NCBI RefSeq assembly: GCF_003075525.1
Contig: NZ_QDDR01000010.1
Span: 1-64,000 of the forward strand
Direction of reading: 5' to 3'
Length of the DNA: 64,000 nt
Source of the DNA: Pararhodobacter aggregans
GTDB lineage: Bacteria; Pseudomonadota; Alphaproteobacteria; Rhodobacterales; Rhodobacteraceae
Part shown: one piece after another, positions 22,534 to 31,399 of the stretch
Layout of the letters: every line of letters starts with the position of its first letter
Position numbering within the stretch: the first letter of the stretch is position 1
Notes under the pieces: model-generated
What the model was told of the DNA's origin: nothing
The model's input: the letters and a program-made list of their open reading frames with translations, nothing else
Database searches by the model: none
Position numbers and translations under genes: made by a program

Positions 22534-23676
22534 TCACGCCACCCGCCGCCCCGCCACCCAGGTGCCCCTGACCGCCGCCTCGGCCCCGAAACGCCGCACG
22601 CGGATCACATCGGCCCTCAGCCCCTCGACCAGCCGTCCGCGGTCCGCCAGCCCCGCCGCGCGGGCCGGGGCCGCGGTGACCGTGGCCAGCCCCCGAGCCA
22701 GATCGCCCCAGATCGCGCCCAGCATCAGCCCGCCGCTCAGCAGCGCCGAGGGCACGTAATCCGAGGACAGCACCTGCAGCACCCCCTGCCGGGCCAGCGC
22801 CTCGGCCGCGACATTGCCGGAATGCGAGCCGCCCCGGATCAGGTTCGGCGCCCCCATCATCACCGCGATCCCGGCCCGGTGGCAGGCAAGCGCCGCCGCC
22901 TCGGTCGTCGGGAATTCGGCGATGGTGGCGCCGTGCCGGGCCGAGGCCGCGACATGCGCTTCGGTCGTGTCGTCATGGCTGGCCAGCACCGCCCCCAGCC
23001 GCCCGGCCGCCGCCACGGCTGCGGCCTCGTGCGGCAGGCGCCGCGCCGCGCCCAGTGCCTGCTGGGCGTGCAGATGCTCCTGAAACTCCGCTTCGGAAAA
23101 CCCGTGCTTGCCGCGCACGTAATGGCGGAAGATGGCGATATCGGCGAACTGGCGCTGACCGGGGGTGTGGTCCATCAGGCTGACGATGCCGACCCGGTCG
23201 GCGGGGCCGAAGCCGTCAAGCTCGCGCTCCAGCGTCTCGGAGCAGATCTCGGCCCTCAGGTGCAGGCGGTGGCTGACCCGCAGCGCCCCCGTCCGATGCG
23301 CGGCGAGGATCCGGTCGGCCACGCCCCGCGCGTATTCCCCGGCACCATACGGTCGGCTGACCAGTGCCCCCACCCGCAAAGCGTCGAAAACCGTGGTGAT
23401 GCCGACCGCCGCCAGTTCCGCATCATGGGCCAGCAGCGCCGCCGCCTGCGGCCAGTTGACGCCCGGGCGGGGCTTGAGGTGGCGCTCCAGATTGTCGGTA
23501 TGCAGTTCGACCAGACCGGGCATGACCAGATCGCCCTCGCAATCGACGGCGCCCGTCGGCAGGTCCGTCCCCGCCTCGATCCGCCGGATCACGCCGCCCG
23601 CCATCTCCAGCCAGCCCGGCAGGACCTCGCCCGGCAGGACCAGCCGGGCATTGGCAAGGATCGTCGTCTCGGTCAT
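22534..23676 (-). CDS. phnM: Alpha-D-ribose 1-methylphosphonate 5-triphosphate diphosphatase
   Basis: Removes pyrophosphate from the ribose-methylphosphonate triphosphate intermediate of the C-P lyase pathway. The 380-residue amidohydrolase-fold protein has the metal-binding region VMPGLVELHTDNLERHLKPRPGV, LMDHTPGQRQF, SHDDTTEAHV, FPTTEAAA and SSDYVPSALL, all typical of PhnM. The rest of the C-P lyase operon (phnGHIJKL) is not in the window. Divergent from the DUF1045 gene across a 53-bp gap with a 14-bp palindrome. Confidence 0.94.
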   Translation of the reverse strand: MTETTILANARLVLPGEVLPGWLEMAGGVIRRIEAGTDLPTGAVDCEGDLVMPGLVELHTDNLERHLKPRPGVNWPQAAALLAHDAELAAVGITTVFDALRVGALVSRPYGAGEYARGVADRILAAHRTGALRVSHRLHLRAEICSETLERELDGFGPADRVGIVSLMDHTPGQRQFADIAIFRHYVRGKHGFSEAEFQEHLHAQQALGAARRLPHEAAAVAAAGRLGAVLASHDDTTEAHVAASARHGATIAEFPTTEAAALACHRAGIAVMMGAPNLIRGGSHSGNVAAEALARQGVLQVLSSDYVPSALLSGGLMLGAIWGDLARGLATVTAAPARAAGLADRGRLVEGLRADVIRVRRFGAEAAVRGTWVAGRRVA

Positions 23677-23692
23677 CCTGTCGGCGCTCCTG

Positions 23693-23706
23693 TCACAGCG
23701 CTGTGA
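23693..23706. promoter_or_regulatory. 14-bp perfect palindrome between phnM and DUF1045 genes
   Basis: TCACAGCGCTGTGA sits in the only 53 bp between two divergent phosphonate genes, where both promoters must lie. It is a candidate operator for a phosphonate regulator; the regulator is not in the window. Confidence 0.45.
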
Positions 23707-23729
23707 TCCCGGCTGCGCATGGTTGCTGC

Positions 23730-24392
23730 ATGAAACGCTACGCCCTGTATTACGCCCCGCCGCCCGGTCCCTGGGCCGAAACCGCCGCGCGCTGGCTCGG
23801 CCGCGATGCTGTCAGTGGCGAGGCGCGGATGCAACCGCATCTCGCGCTGGCCGGCCTGACCGCCAGCGCCCGGCGTTACGGCTTCCACGCCACGCTGAAG
23901 GCGCCGTTCCGTCTGGCCGAAGGGTCAAGCGAGGAGGACCTGCTGGCCGCGGTAGAGGTCTTCGCCGCGGGCATCGCGCCCTTCTCGGTCGAGGGGCTGC
24001 GCGTCGCGGTCCTGGACGGGTTCCTGGCGCTGGTGCCCGCGGGCGATGCCTCGGCGCTGGACACCTTTGCCGCGCAGGTGGTGGTCCGGTTCGAACGCTT
24101 CCGCGCGCCGCTCGCCGCCGAGGACCGCGCCCGCCGCCGCCCCGAGCAACTCAGCGTGCGCCAGCGCGCCCTCCTCGATACCTATGGCTACCCCTGGGTG
24201 ATGGAGGAATTCCGCTTCCACATGACCCTGACCGACCGGCTGACGTCCGAACAGAGCGCCCGCCTTCAGCCGCTGGCCGAGGCCGATTTCACCCCGGTCC
24301 TGCCACGGCCGTTCGTACTGGGTGCGCTCTCGGTCTTCGCCGAGGATGCCGAGGGCCTGTTTACCGAGATCCACCGCGCCCGGCTGGGCTGA
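23730..24392 (+). CDS. DUF1045 phosphonate-metabolism protein (2H phosphoesterase fold)
   Basis: 220-residue protein of the family found with C-P lyase genes. It carries the two HxT motifs of 2H phosphoesterases, GFHATLKAPF (about 50) and FRFHMTLTDRL (about 163), and the N-terminal RYALYYAPP. By position and family it probably acts on a cyclic ribose phosphate or related intermediate of phosphonate breakdown, like the PhnP step; that is inference. The ATG at 23730 (MKRYALYY) is preferred to an in-frame ATG 9 codons upstream. Only 2 bp separate its stop from the convergent transporter. Confidence 0.85.
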   Translation: MKRYALYYAPPPGPWAETAARWLGRDAVSGEARMQPHLALAGLTASARRYGFHATLKAPFRLAEGSSEEDLLAAVEVFAAGIAPFSVEGLRVAVLDGFLALVPAGDASALDTFAAQVVVRFERFRAPLAAEDRARRRPEQLSVRQRALLDTYGYPWVMEEFRFHMTLTDRLTSEQSARLQPLAEADFTPVLPRPFVLGALSVFAEDAEGLFTEIHRARLG

Positions 24393-24394
24393 GG

Positions 24395-25240
24395 TCAGGC
24401 GCGGCCGACCCTGAGCAGCACCGCGCCCGCCAGCGTCAGCGCGGTCGACAGCACCTTGGCGAGGCTCAGCCTTTCGCCCAGCAGGAAAACGCCGATCATC
24501 AGCGCGAAGATGATCGAGGTTTCGCGCAACGCCGTGACCAGCGCAATGGGCGCCTGGGTGAAGGCCCAGACCACCAGCGCATAGGCGATGAACGAAGCGC
24601 CGCCGCCCAGGAACAGGGTGCGTTTGAGGGCGATCGAGCGTCCCAGCAGACCCGGCCGCCAGACCCGGGCGAGCCCGGCGAAGATCACCGCATCCAGCGC
24701 CGACAGCACGCCGTAATAGCCGAGCGCCGTTCCCGCCTGCCGCGCGCCCAACCCGTCCGTCACCGAATAGGCGGCGATGAAGCAGCCGGTTATCAGTGCC
24801 AGCACCGCGGCCTTGCCCTGCACGATCCCGTCGCCCCGCCGGACCAGGCTGACCGAGGCGATGCCGATGGAGATCATCGCCACCGCAGCGATTTCAAGGC
24901 TGGAGAAGGTGACGCCGAGGATGAAGGCCGAGGTCAGCGCCACCAGCAAGGGCGCCACGCCCCGGGCGATGGGATAGACCTGCGTCAGGTCGCCGAAGCG
25001 GTAGGATTGCATCAGGAAGACCTGATAGAGCATGTGCAGGACGACGCTGCCCGCGAGGTACGGCCAGCTTTCCGCCGCCGGAAAGGGCACGAAGGGCAGA
25101 AGCGCCGCGCCGAACAGGCCCTGCCCCACCACCACCGCGACCATGGCCGCGCTCTTGTCGGCGCCGCCCTTGACCAGCGCGTTCCAGGCCGCGTGCAGGG
25201 CAGCGGCGAGGATCACCACGGCGAAGACGAGGCCGGTCAT
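24395..25240 (-). CDS. EamA/DMT-family transporter
   Basis: Inner-membrane protein of 281 residues with ten predicted helices in two EamA halves (about 1-135 and 145-281). The second half starts near VLALITGCFIAAYSVTDG and ends LAKVLSTALTLAGAVLLRVGRA, typical of drug/metabolite exporters. The ATG at 25240 (MTGLVFAVVI) opens directly into helix 1. Adjacent phosphonate genes suggest, but do not prove, a phosphonate-related substrate. Confidence 0.88.
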   Translation of the reverse strand: MTGLVFAVVILAAALHAAWNALVKGGADKSAAMVAVVVGQGLFGAALLPFVPFPAAESWPYLAGSVVLHMLYQVFLMQSYRFGDLTQVYPIARGVAPLLVALTSAFILGVTFSSLEIAAVAMISIGIASVSLVRRGDGIVQGKAAVLALITGCFIAAYSVTDGLGARQAGTALGYYGVLSALDAVIFAGLARVWRPGLLGRSIALKRTLFLGGGASFIAYALVVWAFTQAPIALVTALRETSIIFALMIGVFLLGERLSLAKVLSTALTLAGAVLLRVGRA

Positions 25241-25294
25241 TGGCGACACCCTTGCAGCGGGGCGGGGGAAAGGCGCATGGGATTCGGTCCGGTT

Positions 25295-25316
25295 ATCTAG
25301 ACAACTAGACACTTTC
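25295..25316. promoter_or_regulatory. Possible GntR-type operator upstream of the DMT transporter
   Basis: TCTAGACAACTAGAC (25296-25310) has TCTAG/CTAGA arms with a 4-nt spacer and also reads as two direct CTAGACA repeats; TTTCTAG follows at 25313. It lies about 60 bp before the transporter start. HutC/PhnF-type GntR regulators use TAGAC-type half-sites, so a phosphonate-linked repressor is a reasonable guess. Confidence 0.35.
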
Positions 25317-25357: not shown

Positions 25358-25864
25358 TCAGCCGCGTGAGGCCGCCAGAAACGCCGCGCTGACCTTGGCC
25401 AGCGCCTCGGCCCTGAGGCGCGGCAGGTCGGCCAGCACCACGGGCGGGCCGTCTCCCGGCACCATCCACGCCGCCCAATCGGCATCGCTCATCTCTCGCC
25501 ACTCCACATTCAGATGAATGCGGCTGTGGTCGAAAAGGTGCCGCAGCGCCCGGGGCGGCAGATGGGCGGCGAAATCGACCTCGGCCGGGTCGGGGACCAG
25601 CGAGGGCACCCCCTGCCCGGCCCGATGCGCGGCAATCGCCTCGCCCATCCGCCTCGCTTCCAGCGACAGAAGCGCAATCCGCCAGCCGAGCGAGGGCTGG
25701 TCCGGGCGATAGAGCGCCGCGTCGGGCGTGTCGTTCAGCAGCCGCGCGACCTGCGCGGTCAGGCGGCGGGCCTGCAACAGGTCCCCGGCCGGGGCGCCGG
25801 GCGCGTCATAGCGTGCGCCCGCCCCCTGCCGCTCGATCAGCGCCTGACGCGCGGGGTCGGTCAC
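25358..25864 (-). CDS. Probable DinB-like maleylpyruvate isomerase
   Basis: 168-residue protein, last gene of the gentisate operon. Helical, with SLGWRIALLSLEARRMGEAIAAHRAGQG and RALRHLFDHSRIHLNVEWREMSDADWAAWM, which resemble the helical bundle of mycothiol-type maleylpyruvate isomerases (DinB fold). That activity, maleylpyruvate to fumarylpyruvate, is the only step otherwise missing between its two neighbours. The identification rests partly on this context. A GTG start 4 nt after the dioxygenase stop, with GAGGACTGAGG before it, fixes the N-terminus. The thiol cofactor cannot be read from the sequence. Confidence 0.55.
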   Translation of the reverse strand: MTDPARQALIERQGAGARYDAPGAPAGDLLQARRLTAQVARLLNDTPDAALYRPDQPSLGWRIALLSLEARRMGEAIAAHRAGQGVPSLVPDPAEVDFAAHLPPRALRHLFDHSRIHLNVEWREMSDADWAAWMVPGDGPPVVLADLPRLRAEALAKVSAAFLAASRG

Positions 25865-25868
25865 GGCC

Positions 25869-26969
25869 TCAGTCCTCGACAAAGGCGGTGCGGTCGAAAT
25901 GCAGCCGCTCCATGATCGGCGCATCCGAGAAGTGGAAAAGGTCGAACTGCGTCTCGGCCTGCAGTTTCCACGGCACCCAGGACGGCACGACGAACATGTC
26001 GCCGATATCGAGCGCGTGCTCGACGCCCCCCAGCACCACCGAGCCCCGGCCGGAAAACACCTGAAACACCGACGACCCCACATCCCGCCGCATCCGGCTG
26101 GCGGCCCCGGCCCTGAGGCGGTGGAACTGGCAGCGGATCGTCGGCATCACATCGCCGCCGGTGGTCGGATTGACGTAGCGGATGCCGGCATGGCCCAGAC
26201 TGTAGGTCGCGGGCTGGCCCTCGTCCTCCAGCAGCAGCTGTTCGGTCAGGGCGCGGTCGGTGTGTTCCCAGCGGAAGGCGGCCAACGGGCTGGAGACGGT
26301 ATTCTCCAGCTTTGACAAGGGCCTGAGCCCCGGATGCGCCCAGAGCCTTTCGCCCTGACTGAAGCGCGGCGTCGCGTAATCCGTCACCCTGTCGGCGCCG
26401 AACTCGAAGAAGCCCACGTCGTTTTGCTTGCTGAACGGGATGTCCAGCCCGTCGATCCAGGCCATCGGCGCGTCGGTATCGTTGTGGTGGCCGTGGAAAT
26501 TCCAGCCCGGCGTCAGCAGCAGATCGCCCCGCGACATGCGCACCGGATCGCCGTTGACCACGGTCCAGACGCCCTCGCCCTCGACCACGAAGCGGAAGGC
26601 GTTCTGCGCGTGGCGATGCTCGGGCGCGGTCTCGCGCGGGCCGAGGTACTGGATCGCGGCCCAGAGCGTCGGGCTGACATAGGCCGCGCCGCCAAGGCCC
26701 GGGTTCGCCAGCCCGATGGCCCGCCGCTCGCCGCCCCGCCCGACCGGGACCAGCGCGCCCGAGGCCTCGGCCAGCGGCAGCAGATCCTTCCAGCGCCACA
26801 GATGCGGCACCGCCCTGGGTTTGGGATGCATCGGCATCAGATCGCCCGTCTGGGTCCAGAGCGGGATCAGGTGATGATCGGCAAAGCCCTGATAGAGCGC
26901 GCGCAGTTCCGGTGTATCCTCGGGCTGCATGCCATGGGCGACGGTTTCGTGGGTCAGATCCTTGGTCAT
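25869..26969 (-). CDS. Gentisate 1,2-dioxygenase
   Basis: Ring-cleaving Fe(II) enzyme that opens gentisate to maleylpyruvate. The 366-residue bicupin has the N-terminal PHLWRWKDLLPL segment, the metal-binding cupin motif APEHRHAQNAFRFVVEGEG (H118, H120) with the third His expected in GWNFHGHHND (about 159), and a second, degenerate cupin (SSVFQVFSGRGSVVLGG) near the C-terminus. Its ATG overlaps the stop of the hydrolase gene by 4 nt. Its neighbours encode the next two pathway steps, which firmly supports the assignment. Confidence 0.93.
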   Translation of the reverse strand: MTKDLTHETVAHGMQPEDTPELRALYQGFADHHLIPLWTQTGDLMPMHPKPRAVPHLWRWKDLLPLAEASGALVPVGRGGERRAIGLANPGLGGAAYVSPTLWAAIQYLGPRETAPEHRHAQNAFRFVVEGEGVWTVVNGDPVRMSRGDLLLTPGWNFHGHHNDTDAPMAWIDGLDIPFSKQNDVGFFEFGADRVTDYATPRFSQGERLWAHPGLRPLSKLENTVSSPLAAFRWEHTDRALTEQLLLEDEGQPATYSLGHAGIRYVNPTTGGDVMPTIRCQFHRLRAGAASRMRRDVGSSVFQVFSGRGSVVLGGVEHALDIGDMFVVPSWVPWKLQAETQFDLFHFSDAPIMERLHFDRTAFVED

Positions 26970-27682
26970 AGCGCAGCCTCGCTGAGGCCCGCGCGGGGCC
27001 CGATGGTGGTTGTCAGATCGCCCAGCCCCTCGATGCTGACCACGCAGATATCGCCCGGCACCAGCGCCCCCACACCCGCGGGCGTGCCGGTCATGATGAG
27101 ATCGCCCGCCTTCAGCGCCATGGAGCGCGAGAGGATGGCGATGATCTCGGGCACAGTCCAGATCAGTTCCGAGAGGTCGGCGTCCTGCATCACCTTACCG
27201 TTGACCGTCAGCCGGATCGAGCCCGTCGCCGGATGCCCGACCTCGGCCGCCTTGCGGATCGCCGCGATGGGGGCCGAGCGGTCAAAGGCCTTGCCCCAAT
27301 CCCAGGGCCGCCCCTTGTCGCGCGCCTCGAGCTGCAGGTCGCGGCGGGTCAGGTCATTGCCCACGGCATAGCCATAGACGTGATCCAGCGCCTGCCCCTC
27401 GGGGATGTTCACCCCGTCCTTGCCGATGGCCACGACCAGCTCGGCCTCGTAGTGGAAATTCGCCGTCTCGGGCGGATAGGCGACGGTCTCGCCATCGCCC
27501 AGCACCGCATCGGCGGGCTTGGTGAAGAAGAAGGGCGGGTCGCGGTCCGGGTCCTTGCCCATCTCGCGGGCATGGGCGGCGTAGTTGCGGCCGACGCAGA
27601 AGATCCGGCGCACGGGGAAGCGCGCCGCCTCGCCCACCACGGGCAGGCTGGGCGTCGGCATCGGGGCGAAAACGTAGTCCAT
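26966..27682 (-). CDS. Fumarylpyruvate hydrolase (FAH family)
   Basis: Splits fumarylpyruvate into fumarate and pyruvate, the last step of the gentisate pathway. The 238-residue FAH-fold protein shows IFCVGRNYAAHAREMG, PPFFFTKPADAVLGDG, the metal-binding FHYEAELVVAIGKDG, and GDLIMTGTPAGVGALVPGD. Two in-frame ATGs exist (27688 and 27682). The AAAGGA site abuts the first but lies 6 nt before the second, so the second is preferred. Substrate assignment rests on the adjacent gentisate dioxygenase. Confidence 0.9.
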   Translation of the reverse strand: MDYVFAPMPTPSLPVVGEAARFPVRRIFCVGRNYAAHAREMGKDPDRDPPFFFTKPADAVLGDGETVAYPPETANFHYEAELVVAIGKDGVNIPEGQALDHVYGYAVGNDLTRRDLQLEARDKGRPWDWGKAFDRSAPIAAIRKAAEVGHPATGSIRLTVNGKVMQDADLSELIWTVPEIIAILSRSMALKAGDLIMTGTPAGVGALVPGDICVVSIEGLGDLTTTIGPRAGLSEAAL

Positions 27683-27701
27683 GGGCATTCCTTTCGGCGG
27701 C

Positions 27702-30425
27702 TCAGCGCGCGGCGAGCGTCTGGCGGTCGATCTTGCCGGTGCCGGTCTTCGGCAATCCGTCGCAATATTCGATCAGGCGGGGGTATTTGAACGGCTGCAA
27801 CCGCTCCTTGACGAAGGCGCGTATCGAGTCGTCCATCGCCGGGCCGGGCCGGGCGCCGCTCCGCAAATGCACGAAGGCGCGCAATGCCATGCGCTTGTCC
27901 TCCAGCGCATGGGCGAGGACGGCGCATTCATGGATATCGGGATGCTCGGCCAGGCATTTCTCGACCTCGCCGGGCCAGACCCATTGGCCCGAGACCTTGA
28001 TGAGTTCATCGGCGCGGCCCTGGAAGTAGTAATACCCGTCCCGCTCGACGAAGCGGTCGCCGGTATAGATCCAGTCGCCGCGCATCGTGTCGCGGGTCTT
28101 GTCGGGCCGGTTCCAGTAGCTCGGCGCCGAGGAATGGCCGCGGACCTGCATCACCCCCTCCTCGCCCGGTCTGGCGGGCTCGCCCTCGGGCGTCAGCAAC
28201 CGGATTTCGTAGCCCGGCACCCGGGCACCGGCCGCGCCCAGCCGGTGATCGTCCAGCCGGTTGGACAGGTAGACATGCAGCATCTCGGTCGAGCCGAGGC
28301 CTTCGGTCGGGCCATGCCCGGCGAGGCGCACCCAGCTCTTGTAGACATCCTCGGACAGGATCTCGGCCGCCGACATGCTTTGCCTGAGCGAGGAGAAATC
28401 GGCGCCCTCGGCCCGGGGGCTGCGGGCGATGGCGGTGAAGAGCGTGGGCAGGCCGAAGAAGACGGTGGGCCGGAAGCGTTCAATCGTGTCGATCACCGCC
28501 TCGGCCCGGGGCTGGCCGGGCATCAGCACGGTGGTCGCGCCGACAGAGAAGGGGAAGGTGAAGGCGTTGCCGAAGCCATAGGCGAAGAAGATCTTCGGGA
28601 CGGAAAAGCACAGGTCATCGGGCGTCAGCCGCAGCACATGCCGCCCGAACGAGAGGTCCGAATAGGCCATGTCGTGATGCAGGTGGACAATCCCTTTGGG
28701 CCGCCCGGTCGAGCCCGAGGAATACATCCAGAAGGCCATGTCATCGGGCGCGGTATCGGCAGCCTCCAGCGTGGTCGGCTGACCTTGCAGGAACGCCTCG
28801 GCCCCCTCGAACCCCTCGGCCGCGCCATTCACCGTGATGACCCGGGCCACGTCGGTCCCGGCCAGCACCTCAGGCCCGAAATGCGCCGCCAGCGAGGCCT
28901 CACACAGCGCGATCCGGGCGCCGGTGTCCTTCAGGAAATAGTTCAGCGTCTCGTCCGGGGTCTGGGTGTTCAGGAGCACCGGCACGAACCCCGCCCGCAC
29001 CGCGCCGAAGAAGGCGGCGGGATAGGCGGGCGTGTCATCGAGGAAGAAGGGAATCCGCGCGCCCCGCTGCAACCCGGCCTTGGTGAAGGCATTCCCCCAG
29101 CGTGCGGCCTCGGCGATCAACGCGCGGTAGGTCAGCGTGCCGGCGGGGCCGGTGACGGCGGGTTTGTCGGGGTTGCGGGTCAGGTTCTGCCACAGGATGT
29201 CCGAGCAATTCGGATGCGCGGCCTTGTCGAAGCCGATCTCCAAAGCGCCCGGCGTCCCCTCGCCCACCGGGTCGGTGATCGCATCGGGATGCGCCCGCTT
29301 CTCGGCCTCGTAGCGGGCGGCGAAGCCGGGGGCGAGCTTGCGCAGCCGGTCCATGTCCACCCGGCCCGAGCGGGTGATGTAGTCGAAGGCGAAATCAAGC
29401 GGCGCCTTTTCCATCCGGGCGCCGAAATCCTCGTACCACCCGGCCGAGGTATTCGCCGCATCGACGATCTTGCGGGCAATCGGCAGGCGCGTGGCCTCGA
29501 ACCGCGCCAGCCCCTCGCGCCAGTCGTCCGTCCCGGCCAGCGCCTCGACCAGTGCGATCACATCCTCGAAGGCCAGCCGCGTGCCCGAGCCGATGGAGAA
29601 ATGCGCGGTATGCGCCGCGTCGCCGACGATGACGTAGCGGTCATGCACCCAGCGCCGGCACCAGAGACGCGGGAACTGCCGCCAGACCGACTTGTTGGTA
29701 ATCAGCTCGGCCCCGTCCAGCACCTCGGCGAACAGTTCCTGACACAGCGCCGCGCTGGCCTTTTCGTCCATCTGCCCGAAGCCGTAGCGCTCGAAGGTCT
29801 CGTGTTCGCATTCGACGATGAAGGTCGAGCGGTCGGGCGCAAAGCGGTAGTGATGCGCGTTCATCGGCCCCTTGGGGGTGCGGATGAAGCTCTGGGTCAG
29901 GGTGTCGAAGGGCCGCGTCGCCCCGAACCAGGCGAAATGGCAGTTGAAATGCTCGATCTCGGGCGCGAAATCGGCCTTGAAACTGCGGCGCACCAGCGAA
30001 TTCAACCCATCCGCGCCCAGCACCACATCCGCCTCCAGCGCCGAAAGGTCCGTGATCGTGGTGTCGAAGCGGATGTCGATGCCCAACCCCTCGGCGTGCG
30101 CGCGCAGGATCTCGATCAGCTCCAGCCGACCCAGCGCCGTGAAACCCACCCCGTCCAGGATCACCCGATCCTCGGGGTGGTTCAGCGTCATGTTCTGCCA
30201 GCGTTCCATATGCGGCACGATCAGCGCGTGCATCTCGGGGTCCGAGGCGCGCAGGAAATCGAGCGCCTGATCCGAGAAGACCACCCCGAAGCCGAAGGTC
30301 GCCCCCTTCGGGTTCTGCTCGTACACGGTGACCTGAACCTGCGGCATTTTCCGCCGCATCAGGATCGCCGCATAGAGGCCCGCGGGCCCGCCCCCCACAA
30401 TCGCCATGCGCTTGAGCTGCGCCAT
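27702..30425 (-). CDS. Fusion: FAD aryl-CoA hydroxylase + benzoate-CoA-ligase-type enzyme
   Basis: Single 907-residue polypeptide. Residues 1 to about 385 form an FAD monooxygenase of the salicylyl-CoA 5-hydroxylase/2-aminobenzoyl-CoA monooxygenase type: VGGGPAG (10-16), VLGADGLNSLVRRSF (136-150) and VGDAAHTAHFSIGSGTRLAFED. Residues about 400-907 form an acyl-CoA synthetase close to benzoate-CoA ligase: YSSGSTGRPKG (568-578), YTGDRF (788-793) and the adenylation Lys in PKTGTGKIDR (K898). Inferred role: activate salicylate (or 3-hydroxybenzoate) to the CoA thioester and hydroxylate it to gentisyl-CoA, feeding the dioxygenase downstream. No frameshift or internal start is needed. GGGAGGGG before the ATG supports the start. 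First gene of the operon; divergent from the IclR regulator. Confidence 0.88.
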   Translation of the reverse strand: MAQLKRMAIVGGGPAGLYAAILMRRKMPQVQVTVYEQNPKGATFGFGVVFSDQALDFLRASDPEMHALIVPHMERWQNMTLNHPEDRVILDGVGFTALGRLELIEILRAHAEGLGIDIRFDTTITDLSALEADVVLGADGLNSLVRRSFKADFAPEIEHFNCHFAWFGATRPFDTLTQSFIRTPKGPMNAHHYRFAPDRSTFIVECEHETFERYGFGQMDEKASAALCQELFAEVLDGAELITNKSVWRQFPRLWCRRWVHDRYVIVGDAAHTAHFSIGSGTRLAFEDVIALVEALAGTDDWREGLARFEATRLPIARKIVDAANTSAGWYEDFGARMEKAPLDFAFDYITRSGRVDMDRLRKLAPGFAARYEAEKRAHPDAITDPVGEGTPGALEIGFDKAAHPNCSDILWQNLTRNPDKPAVTGPAGTLTYRALIAEAARWGNAFTKAGLQRGARIPFFLDDTPAYPAAFFGAVRAGFVPVLLNTQTPDETLNYFLKDTGARIALCEASLAAHFGPEVLAGTDVARVITVNGAAEGFEGAEAFLQGQPTTLEAADTAPDDMAFWMYSSGSTGRPKGIVHLHHDMAYSDLSFGRHVLRLTPDDLCFSVPKIFFAYGFGNAFTFPFSVGATTVLMPGQPRAEAVIDTIERFRPTVFFGLPTLFTAIARSPRAEGADFSSLRQSMSAAEILSEDVYKSWVRLAGHGPTEGLGSTEMLHVYLSNRLDDHRLGAAGARVPGYEIRLLTPEGEPARPGEEGVMQVRGHSSAPSYWNRPDKTRDTMRGDWIYTGDRFVERDGYYYFQGRADELIKVSGQWVWPGEVEKCLAEHPDIHECAVLAHALEDKRMALRAFVHLRSGARPGPAMDDSIRAFVKERLQPFKYPRLIEYCDGLPKTGTGKIDRQTLAAR

Positions 30426-30466
30426 CGTCTTCCCCTCCCGACCGAACACGTGTCGGGCGGGACGTT

Positions 30467-30513
30467 AGGAAATAATTCCTCAGGATGCAACCGATTCCGC
30501 ATAGGGGAATTAT
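30467..30513. promoter_or_regulatory. Putative IclR operator region
   Basis: In the gap between the fusion gene and the IclR gene, AGGAAATAATTCCT (30467-30480) is an inverted repeat with a 4-nt spacer. Its ATAATTCC half is repeated in inverted form as GGAATTAT at 30506-30513. It is AT-rich in a GC-rich region, which fits a promoter/operator; binding is inferred. Confidence 0.45.
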
Positions 30514-30595
30514 GCCGACGGTTTCCGGCTGCCGGAGCGTTGTTTGTCGGGGCCGCCACTGGTATCAACGCCGGACCAGAACGGGGACCGGGCGG

Positions 30596-31399
30596 ATGAC
30601 GAAAGAGTCGAAGGACAGCGGCGCGGGCGGGGGCATCCAGTCGCTGGACGCGGCGCTCAAGGTGCTGGCGCATATGGCCCGCGCCGGTGGCCCGATCTCG
30701 CTGACCGATCTGGCGCGGGAAACCGACATGCCGCCCAGCAAGGTGCACCGTTACCTCGCGTCCTTCCTGGCGGCGGGATTGGTGGCGCAGGGCGGGCGAT
30801 CGGGCAAATACGACCTCGGGCGCGGCGCCATCGACCTTGGCCTCGCCGCGCTGGACCGGCACGATTTCGTCAACGCCCCCTCGGCCCATCTGGGCGATCT
30901 GCGCGAGGAAACCGGGCTTACCGTGCTGCTGTCGGTCTGGGGCGCGGGCGGCGCGACCGTGGTCCGGTGGGAGCGCGCGGCCTCTCCCGTCGTCACCTCG
31001 ATGGGGCTGGGCACCACCCTGCCGCTCCTCAATTCCTCGACCGGGCGGGTGTTCCTGGCCTATGGCCCCCGCCCGCCGATGGAGCATCAGCTGGGCCTGG
31101 AGCTGGCCCGCGCCCGCAAGACGCCCGAGATCCTGTCCGACGCCGAGCCCAGCCGCGCCGGGATCGAGGCGCTGGCCGAGAGGGTCCGCGCGCAGGGCTA
31201 TGCCACGGTCTCGGGCGATTACATCCCCGGGCTGGCGGCGGTGGCGGCGCCGCTTCTGGACTGGCAGGGGCAGGCGCAGGCGGTCATCACCCTGATTGGC
31301 ACCAGCCGCGAGACGATCCGCGAGGGTGCCCCGCCGATCGCCCGCCTGCTCGATTTCTGCCGCGCCCATTCCTTCGCGCCCCTCGGCGCGAAGGGCTGA
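30596..31399 (+). CDS. IclR-family transcriptional regulator
   Basis: DNA-binding regulator of 267 residues, presumably of the divergent aromatic operon. The N-terminal winged helix-turn-helix is seen in IQSLDAALKVLAHMARAGGPISLTDLAR-type sequence (about 15-45) with MPPSKVHRYLASFLAAGLV. The C-terminal IclR effector domain follows, with LREETGLTVLLSVW and SGDYIPGLAAVAAPLLD. The ATG at 30596 has a weak GGGCGG site; sequence upstream of it in frame is not IclR-like. The effector is probably an aromatic acid or its CoA ester. Confidence 0.88.
   Translation: MTKESKDSGAGGGIQSLDAALKVLAHMARAGGPISLTDLARETDMPPSKVHRYLASFLAAGLVAQGGRSGKYDLGRGAIDLGLAALDRHDFVNAPSAHLGDLREETGLTVLLSVWGAGGATVVRWERAASPVVTSMGLGTTLPLLNSSTGRVFLAYGPRPPMEHQLGLELARARKTPEILSDAEPSRAGIEALAERVRAQGYATVSGDYIPGLAAVAAPLLDWQGQAQAVITLIGTSRETIREGAPPIARLLDFCRAHSFAPLGAKG

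Follow-up and report, generated by a model that had tools for sequence, protein, structure and literature searches.

Salicylate serves plants as a defence hormone and arises as an intermediate when naphthalene and carbaryl are broken down. In the best-described bacteria that degrade it by a coenzyme A (CoA) route, the ligation and hydroxylation steps are carried out by separate proteins. Here, we analyzed a stretch of 64,000 nucleotides from Pararhodobacter aggregans (contig NZ_QDDR01000010.1, positions 1 to 64,000; hereafter the window), in which a hydroxylase and a ligase of this kind are encoded by one fused gene. The closest named systems are those of Agrobacterium tumefaciens Sta004, where plasmid pAt1 carries cehH (salicylyl-CoA hydroxylase) and cehG (salicylyl-CoA ligase) as adjacent, separately annotated genes (locus L103), and of Salipiger abyssi (L104), where the same two halves are adjacent genes annotated cehH and cehG. 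A divergent gene in Sta004 is annotated as cehI, a gentisyl-CoA thioesterase, and S. abyssi has an acyl-CoA thioesterase at that place. The ceh names appear to derive from Rhizobium sp. X9, which, according to the accessible parts of the papers concerned, has CoA-mediated salicylate catabolism (Zhou et al. 2021, cited in PMC11335346) and is the source of CehC1C2 (PMC8292978).

Other described enzymes resemble the fused protein in one part only. The bifunctional salicylyl-CoA 5-hydroxylase/oxidoreductase family NF006101 has a related N-terminal hydroxylase (39% identity to the copy in the window's own genome), but its partner is an old yellow enzyme rather than a ligase. That copy is a separate salicylyl-CoA-hydroxylase-like protein with an old yellow enzyme, scoring above the NF006101 cut-off (C7:240657-241772, L115). 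Benzoate-CoA ligases (4EAT, 4RLF and 2V7B) share the ligase fold and motifs, but have no attached hydroxylase and differ at three motif positions. The sdg route of Streptomyces, to which the original prediction had likened this locus, is comparable by its proposed chemistry alone and was said there to use separate proteins. The predicted CoA route from salicylate to gentisate is itself supported, although among the named systems found the cehH-cehG-cehI set of Agrobacterium comes nearest, at 67-70% identity.

The fused gene is a single intact 907-codon frame on the minus strand, with the stop counted within its coordinates:

27702..30425, minus strand: fused hydroxylase-ligase gene, 907 amino acids (open reading frame, Pfam, NCBIfam), proposed bifunctional salicylyl-CoA ligase/5-hydroxylase
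29286..30425, minus strand: flavin adenine dinucleotide (FAD)-dependent aryl-CoA hydroxylase part, residues 1-380 (FAD_binding_3, motifs, 67% identity to CehH of L103)
29226..29285, minus strand: linker, residues 381-400, DPV...PGA.EIGFD (alignment of fused proteins)
27705..29225, minus strand: aryl-CoA ligase part, residues 401-907 (TIGR02262 above cut-off, 70% identity to CehG of L103)

The original prediction had given exactly this frame, without its strand, and had described an FAD monooxygenase joined to a benzoate-CoA-ligase-type enzyme, with which the Pfam domains and the alignment agree. Pfam places FAD_binding_3 at residues 8-323, AMP-binding at 412-771 and AMP-binding_C at 820-898, each above its curated cut-off, and the ligase half passes the NCBIfam model of the benzoate-CoA ligase family (TIGR02262, 469.8 against a cut-off of 375.25). 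NF006101 was the top-scoring NCBIfam hydroxylase model shown for the protein, but the match was confined to residues 6-376 and to the model's first half, at 381.7 bits against a cut-off of 1078; hence, the hydroxylase half lies outside that hydroxylase-oxidoreductase family. The Pfam results for the fused protein listed no Oxidored_FMN (old yellow enzyme) domain. Motifs are intact in both halves, and the flavin GxGxxG glycines, GD, P-loop, GSTE and C-terminal PKTGTxK positions are invariant columns in 51 aligned fused proteins. The linker is likewise conserved among fused proteins and resembles the arm at the N terminus of CehG, the separate ligase of L103. The start codon is more likely ATG 30425 than GTG 30449, since a GGGAGG-like stretch sits between the two.

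A fused copy 95% identical to the window gene is present in another assembly, a metagenome-assembled genome (L023). The ratio of nonsynonymous to synonymous substitution rates (dN/dS) between the two copies is 0.085 for the whole gene, 0.102 for the hydroxylase and 0.079 for the ligase, and the 20 linker codons show zero amino acid changes. This copy, the low dN/dS and the many fused relatives rule out an assembly error or a pseudogene. The fusion is genuine and under selection.

Because its halves are 66.9% (hydroxylase) and 70.2% (ligase) identical to the adjacent cehH and cehG genes of Sta004, with the same hydroxylase-ligase order, the protein is best read as a bifunctional salicylyl-CoA ligase/5-hydroxylase belonging to the CoA-dependent salicylate route, a reading that we consider probable. 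The surroundings can be compared in the same way:

30596..31399, plus strand: divergent IclR-family regulator (open reading frame, Pfam, NCBIfam)
30426..30595, no strand: intergenic region between operon and IclR gene, presumed promoter/operator; holds no CehI-like gene, unlike in many relatives
26966..27688, minus strand: fumarylpyruvate hydrolase-like protein (FAA_hydrolase; best PDB match 4MAQ, a putative fumarylpyruvate hydrolase)
25869..26969, minus strand: gentisate 1,2-dioxygenase-like bicupin (Pfam; near 2PHD of Pseudaminobacter salicylatoxidans, Ala at the Gly106 position)
25358..25864, minus strand: MDMPI_N-only protein, probable maleylpyruvate isomerase (PF11716; proposed GTG start; conservation)

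The fused gene is the first of a tight operon faced by the IclR gene, with a 13-base gap before the FAA hydrolase gene, a 4-base overlap to the dioxygenase gene and a 4-base gap to the MDMPI_N gene. The linked dioxygenase and hydrolase had been foreseen, and both are borne out by Pfam and by PDB and sequence matches. Relatives of CehH and CehG adjoin in the Sta004 order, here as one gene, and share a common tree with them; a gentisate dioxygenase and a fumarylpyruvate hydrolase are linked to them; a search of 15001-45000 found no adjoining CehI-like thioesterase. The Sta004 cluster shares the two halves and their order, the facing IclR regulator, the FAA hydrolase, a close gentisate dioxygenase and the downstream MDMPI_N protein. 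It differs in having two genes where the window has one, and only Sta004 has the divergent thioesterase and a MaiA-type isomerase.

In the proposed pathway, the C-terminal half would adenylate salicylate with ATP and form salicylyl-CoA, and the N-terminal half would use FAD, NAD(P)H and O2 to hydroxylate this ester at ring position C5, yielding gentisyl-CoA. Gentisate may then be freed by a thioesterase whose gene lies elsewhere in the genome, and the operon dioxygenase would cleave it to maleylpyruvate. The MDMPI_N protein would then isomerise maleylpyruvate, and the FAA hydrolase would split fumarylpyruvate. Salicylate is the presumed substrate, and this order of reactions, a thioesterase acting in trans and any benefit of the fusion are presumed likewise.

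The genome-level distribution of gentisate dioxygenases matches such a pathway. A homologue (E <= 1e-30) was present in 20/20 genomes of the family that carry the hydroxylase and ligase (12 fused, 8 split), compared with 40 of the 275 other family genomes. Counting only the two closer dioxygenase subtypes, a division made after the scores were known, gave 14/20 carriers and 27/275 others (Fisher's P = 2.4e-9); one genome with a ligase fragment (G041) was counted among the others. The window dioxygenase is closely related to 2PHD, the crystallised enzyme of P. salicylatoxidans, but has Ala where 2PHD has Gly106. This glycine is presumably important for salicylate cleavage, which the G106A mutant of the P. 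salicylatoxidans enzyme has reportedly lost. Of 38 distinct close sequences, counting that of the window, 37 have Ala at this position; only the P. salicylatoxidans cluster deviates. Judged from these residues, Ala106 would fit a pathway in which salicylate needs prior hydroxylation.

The hydroxylase-ligase fusion is not unique to P. aggregans but occurs in many Alphaproteobacteria. A search for the two-domain architecture, suggested with the original prediction, found that it recurs: among the best 80 of 368 relatives, ranked by the fused query and hence biased toward fusions, 63 loci were fused and 17 split. Among 295 genomes of the family, for which three candidates per genome were scored and misses are possible, 12 had the fused and 8 the split form, and G041 had the ligase fragment only. 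Across the class (385 genomes), 15 genomes besides the window's own had a hydroxylase match of at least 44% identity; the open frames concerned span 324-451 residues, so none of them is fused. Across the phylum (398 genomes), a fusion of comparable similarity was found only in the window's own genome and in G954. On plasmids, 49 of 182 matching records have one place that covers at least 80% of the query, in fused or split form, and the carriers include Rhizobium and Pseudosulfitobacter plasmids. The fused proteins that were looked up are named for the ligase half alone ("benzoate-CoA ligase family protein"), and with such naming salicylate degradation may easily be overlooked in Rhizobium plasmids and marine Rhodobacterales. 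The titles, abstract openings and passages of the open-access literature that were accessible (including PMC13215587, PMC9219206, PMC11335346, PMC8292978, PMC11264262, PMC13280823 and PMC10306065) do not mention the fusion. As far as this literature shows, the fusion is a new form of the known CoA-dependent route to which it likely belongs.

The history of the fusion was followed in a tree of the concatenated hydroxylase and ligase parts, built by a quick method from 90 rows (65 fused, 25 split) and rooted on one distant outgroup. Loci L001-L022, L082, L116-L123, L127, L128 and L131 were left out as duplicates; four distinct loci missing from this tree (L018, L020 and L022, split; L071, fused) were added later. 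The 90-row tree implies five changes of state, each required by starred branches, and the extended tree (66 fused, 28 split) implies six, of which five are so required. A single fused clade was rejected on the 90-row set by the approximately unbiased test (P = 2e-5 for all 65 fused rows, P = 8e-46 for 57 crown rows), with P values weakened by the choice of groups after the first tree had been viewed. An 18-row group with 16 split pairs, including those of P. salicylatoxidans (L101) and Sta004 (L103), is nested inside fused rows. Since the annotated pair sits within the fused group, the two-gene CehH/CehG form is most simply explained as a later, secondary split from a fused ancestor, which is probably what occurred. 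In the split loci, a single stop codon separates the frames in 9/25, and the two frames are in phase in 11/25, against one third by chance; these counts do not bear out such a lone in-frame stop as a remnant of gene splitting.

The same mostly split group holds two Sulfitobacter loci (L132:6743-10739 and L060:7992-11993) in which a stand-alone hydroxylase gene directly precedes a fused hydroxylase-ligase gene. The separate hydroxylases are 77-79% identical to their closest split relatives. In the fused gene, the ligase is 85% identical to a split ligase, and the hydroxylase part is only 64% identical to its nearest other relative, with motifs intact. From these identities, the fused gene is a probable re-fusion with a second hydroxylase. 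At this kind of locus, two consecutive pathway enzymes occur naturally as one chain, and relatives are split, fused or apparently re-fused; nature has thus set up an experiment on whether enzyme fusion brings channelling or mere co-expression.

These changes of state bear on what the fusion does. The halves may be independent modules without channelling, joined as a translational convenience that fixes a 1:1 ratio, and the gene would hence be able to split and re-fuse. We give this account a slightly better than even chance; it is compatible with a salicylyl-CoA enzyme and rivals only direct transfer of the CoA ester between domains. The five to six changes and the rejected single clade favor it, as does a gene order that is unchanged in split relatives. 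The AlphaFold model of the fused protein has a mean predicted local distance difference test score (pLDDT) of 89.7 but a predicted template modelling score (pTM) of only 0.61; the parts are therefore modelled confidently and their mutual orientation is left unfixed, which is also what independent modules might give. On the other hand, the linker is conserved in sequence and in length in most fused proteins (18-35 residues, 54 in one), and the fused state has been maintained across much divergence.

Several points weigh against a salicylyl-CoA ligase/5-hydroxylase. The ceh names are annotations only, the window's searched part lacks the CehI-like thioesterase, and the model leaves the facing of the two parts unfixed. 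The window dioxygenase is below the cut-off of the gentisate 1,2-dioxygenase model TIGR02272 (255.8 vs 442.1), as is that of the P. salicylatoxidans cluster (276.0). Moreover, 14/14 distant dioxygenase-like cupins in the same alignment carry Gly in the position 106 column, so that Gly106 is no sure mark of salicylate cleavage. No gentisate dioxygenase lies within 7.5 kb in 24/54 fused loci for which the sequence extends 2 kb or more upstream and 6 kb or more downstream, and 5 of the 12 family genomes with a fusion have no dioxygenase homologue closer than 32-35%. Some fused relatives may therefore act on a different acid or rely on a gene that is not linked.

The last two counts leave room for a fusion whose substrate is a different aryl acid (3-hydroxybenzoate, anthranilate, a substituted salicylate or 1-hydroxy-2-naphthoate), likewise degraded to gentisate or an analogue. 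The structure search also permits this, as it matched the ligase half alike to the anthranilate-CoA ligase AuaEII and to benzoate-CoA ligases, such as 4EAT (Z 51.8, root-mean-square deviation 3.0 over 506 residues, 38% identity). The match lists were filled by the ligase (residues 394-907) and are uninformative on the hydroxylase half, whose closest solved relatives by sequence are VioD chains. Nonetheless, another acid seems unlikely for the window enzyme: the named proteins nearest to it (67-70%) carry salicylyl-CoA enzyme annotations and come from an operon of similar make-up, and the operon dioxygenase is of the gentisate/salicylate type. The ligase scores 358 with the 3-hydroxybenzoate-CoA ligase model HbdA, far under the cut-off of 1000 and like CehG (364.5). 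Residues F618, A687 and Y719 are kept in 51/51 aligned fused proteins and are common to CehG of L103; the five benzoate-CoA ligase chains compared have Leu, Gly and Phe at these positions.

A further question for a salicylyl-CoA enzyme is how gentisyl-CoA is released. The original prediction noted no linked thioesterase, which holds for the whole contig of the fused gene, where no match to CehI or 4HBT_2 was found. The genome as a whole has 12 matches to 4HBT_2, 11 of them above the cut-off and all on other contigs, and its best CehI homologue (C7:209177, 44%) lies beside a short-chain dehydrogenase gene. Among relatives with at least 2 kb of upstream sequence, 29/61 fused and 15/22 split loci have an upstream CehI-like gene on the other strand, in most cases at a distance of about 100 bases. 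Loss of the thioesterase with fusion is not borne out by these counts (Fisher's P = 0.14), and since 29 fused loci have the gene, fusion does not in itself entail its absence. Eleven fused loci, that of the window among them, have a close dioxygenase but no CehI-like thioesterase. Upstream of the fused gene of L026, the match to a CehI-like thioesterase is divided into two fragments (69 and 52 bits), perhaps because the gene is broken in that assembly. A hotdog thioesterase encoded elsewhere and acting in trans is the likeliest means of release. Where a thioesterase is missing, CoA could instead be a catalytic handle, the ester staying on the fused polypeptide from activation through hydroxylation and the ligase half freeing gentisate. 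Such release, by reversal with AMP and pyrophosphate or by hydrolysis of gentisyl-AMP, would need neither a free CoA ester nor a thioesterase, but we regard it as quite improbable.

Least probable is direct cleavage of salicylate by the operon dioxygenase, with a different or side substrate for the fused enzyme: the dioxygenase is near the P. salicylatoxidans enzyme, which papers, in their accessible parts, name a salicylate 1,2-dioxygenase, but it has Ala106, and the G106A mutant is titled, in reference lists, a model of conventional gentisate 1,2-dioxygenase. The 2PHD enzyme, with one residue different, is encoded within a complete split ceh-like cluster in P. salicylatoxidans DSM 6986 (L101:12342-13445). 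Sta004 shares with this locus a 7.8 kb stretch that is 98.4% identical, but has Ala instead of Gly106. From this comparison, Gly106 looks like a recent change atop the CoA route. Farther along the contig of the fused gene, beyond the window, lies the gene of another gentisate-dioxygenase-like cupin, a distant one at 35% (C10:104849-105913).

The last gene of the operon tracks the ring-cleavage genes rather than the CoA genes, being present in 34/35 loci with a close dioxygenase and 0/32 without any linked dioxygenase; for this reason we take the MDMPI_N protein to be an isomerase rather than the thioesterase that is missing here. MaiA is missing from 7/35 loci with a close dioxygenase. MDMPI_N-only proteins of about 170-200 residues recur in alphaproteobacterial gentisate operons, mostly beside a MaiA-type isomerase, and all 36 aligned sequences share H119 and H123. 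Alphaproteobacteria are not known as mycothiol producers. Adjoining the operon, window positions 22534-25312 hold phosphonate-type genes. They encode PhnM, a DUF1045/TIGR03223 protein and, with a match to TIGR03340 below its cut-off, an EamA transporter.

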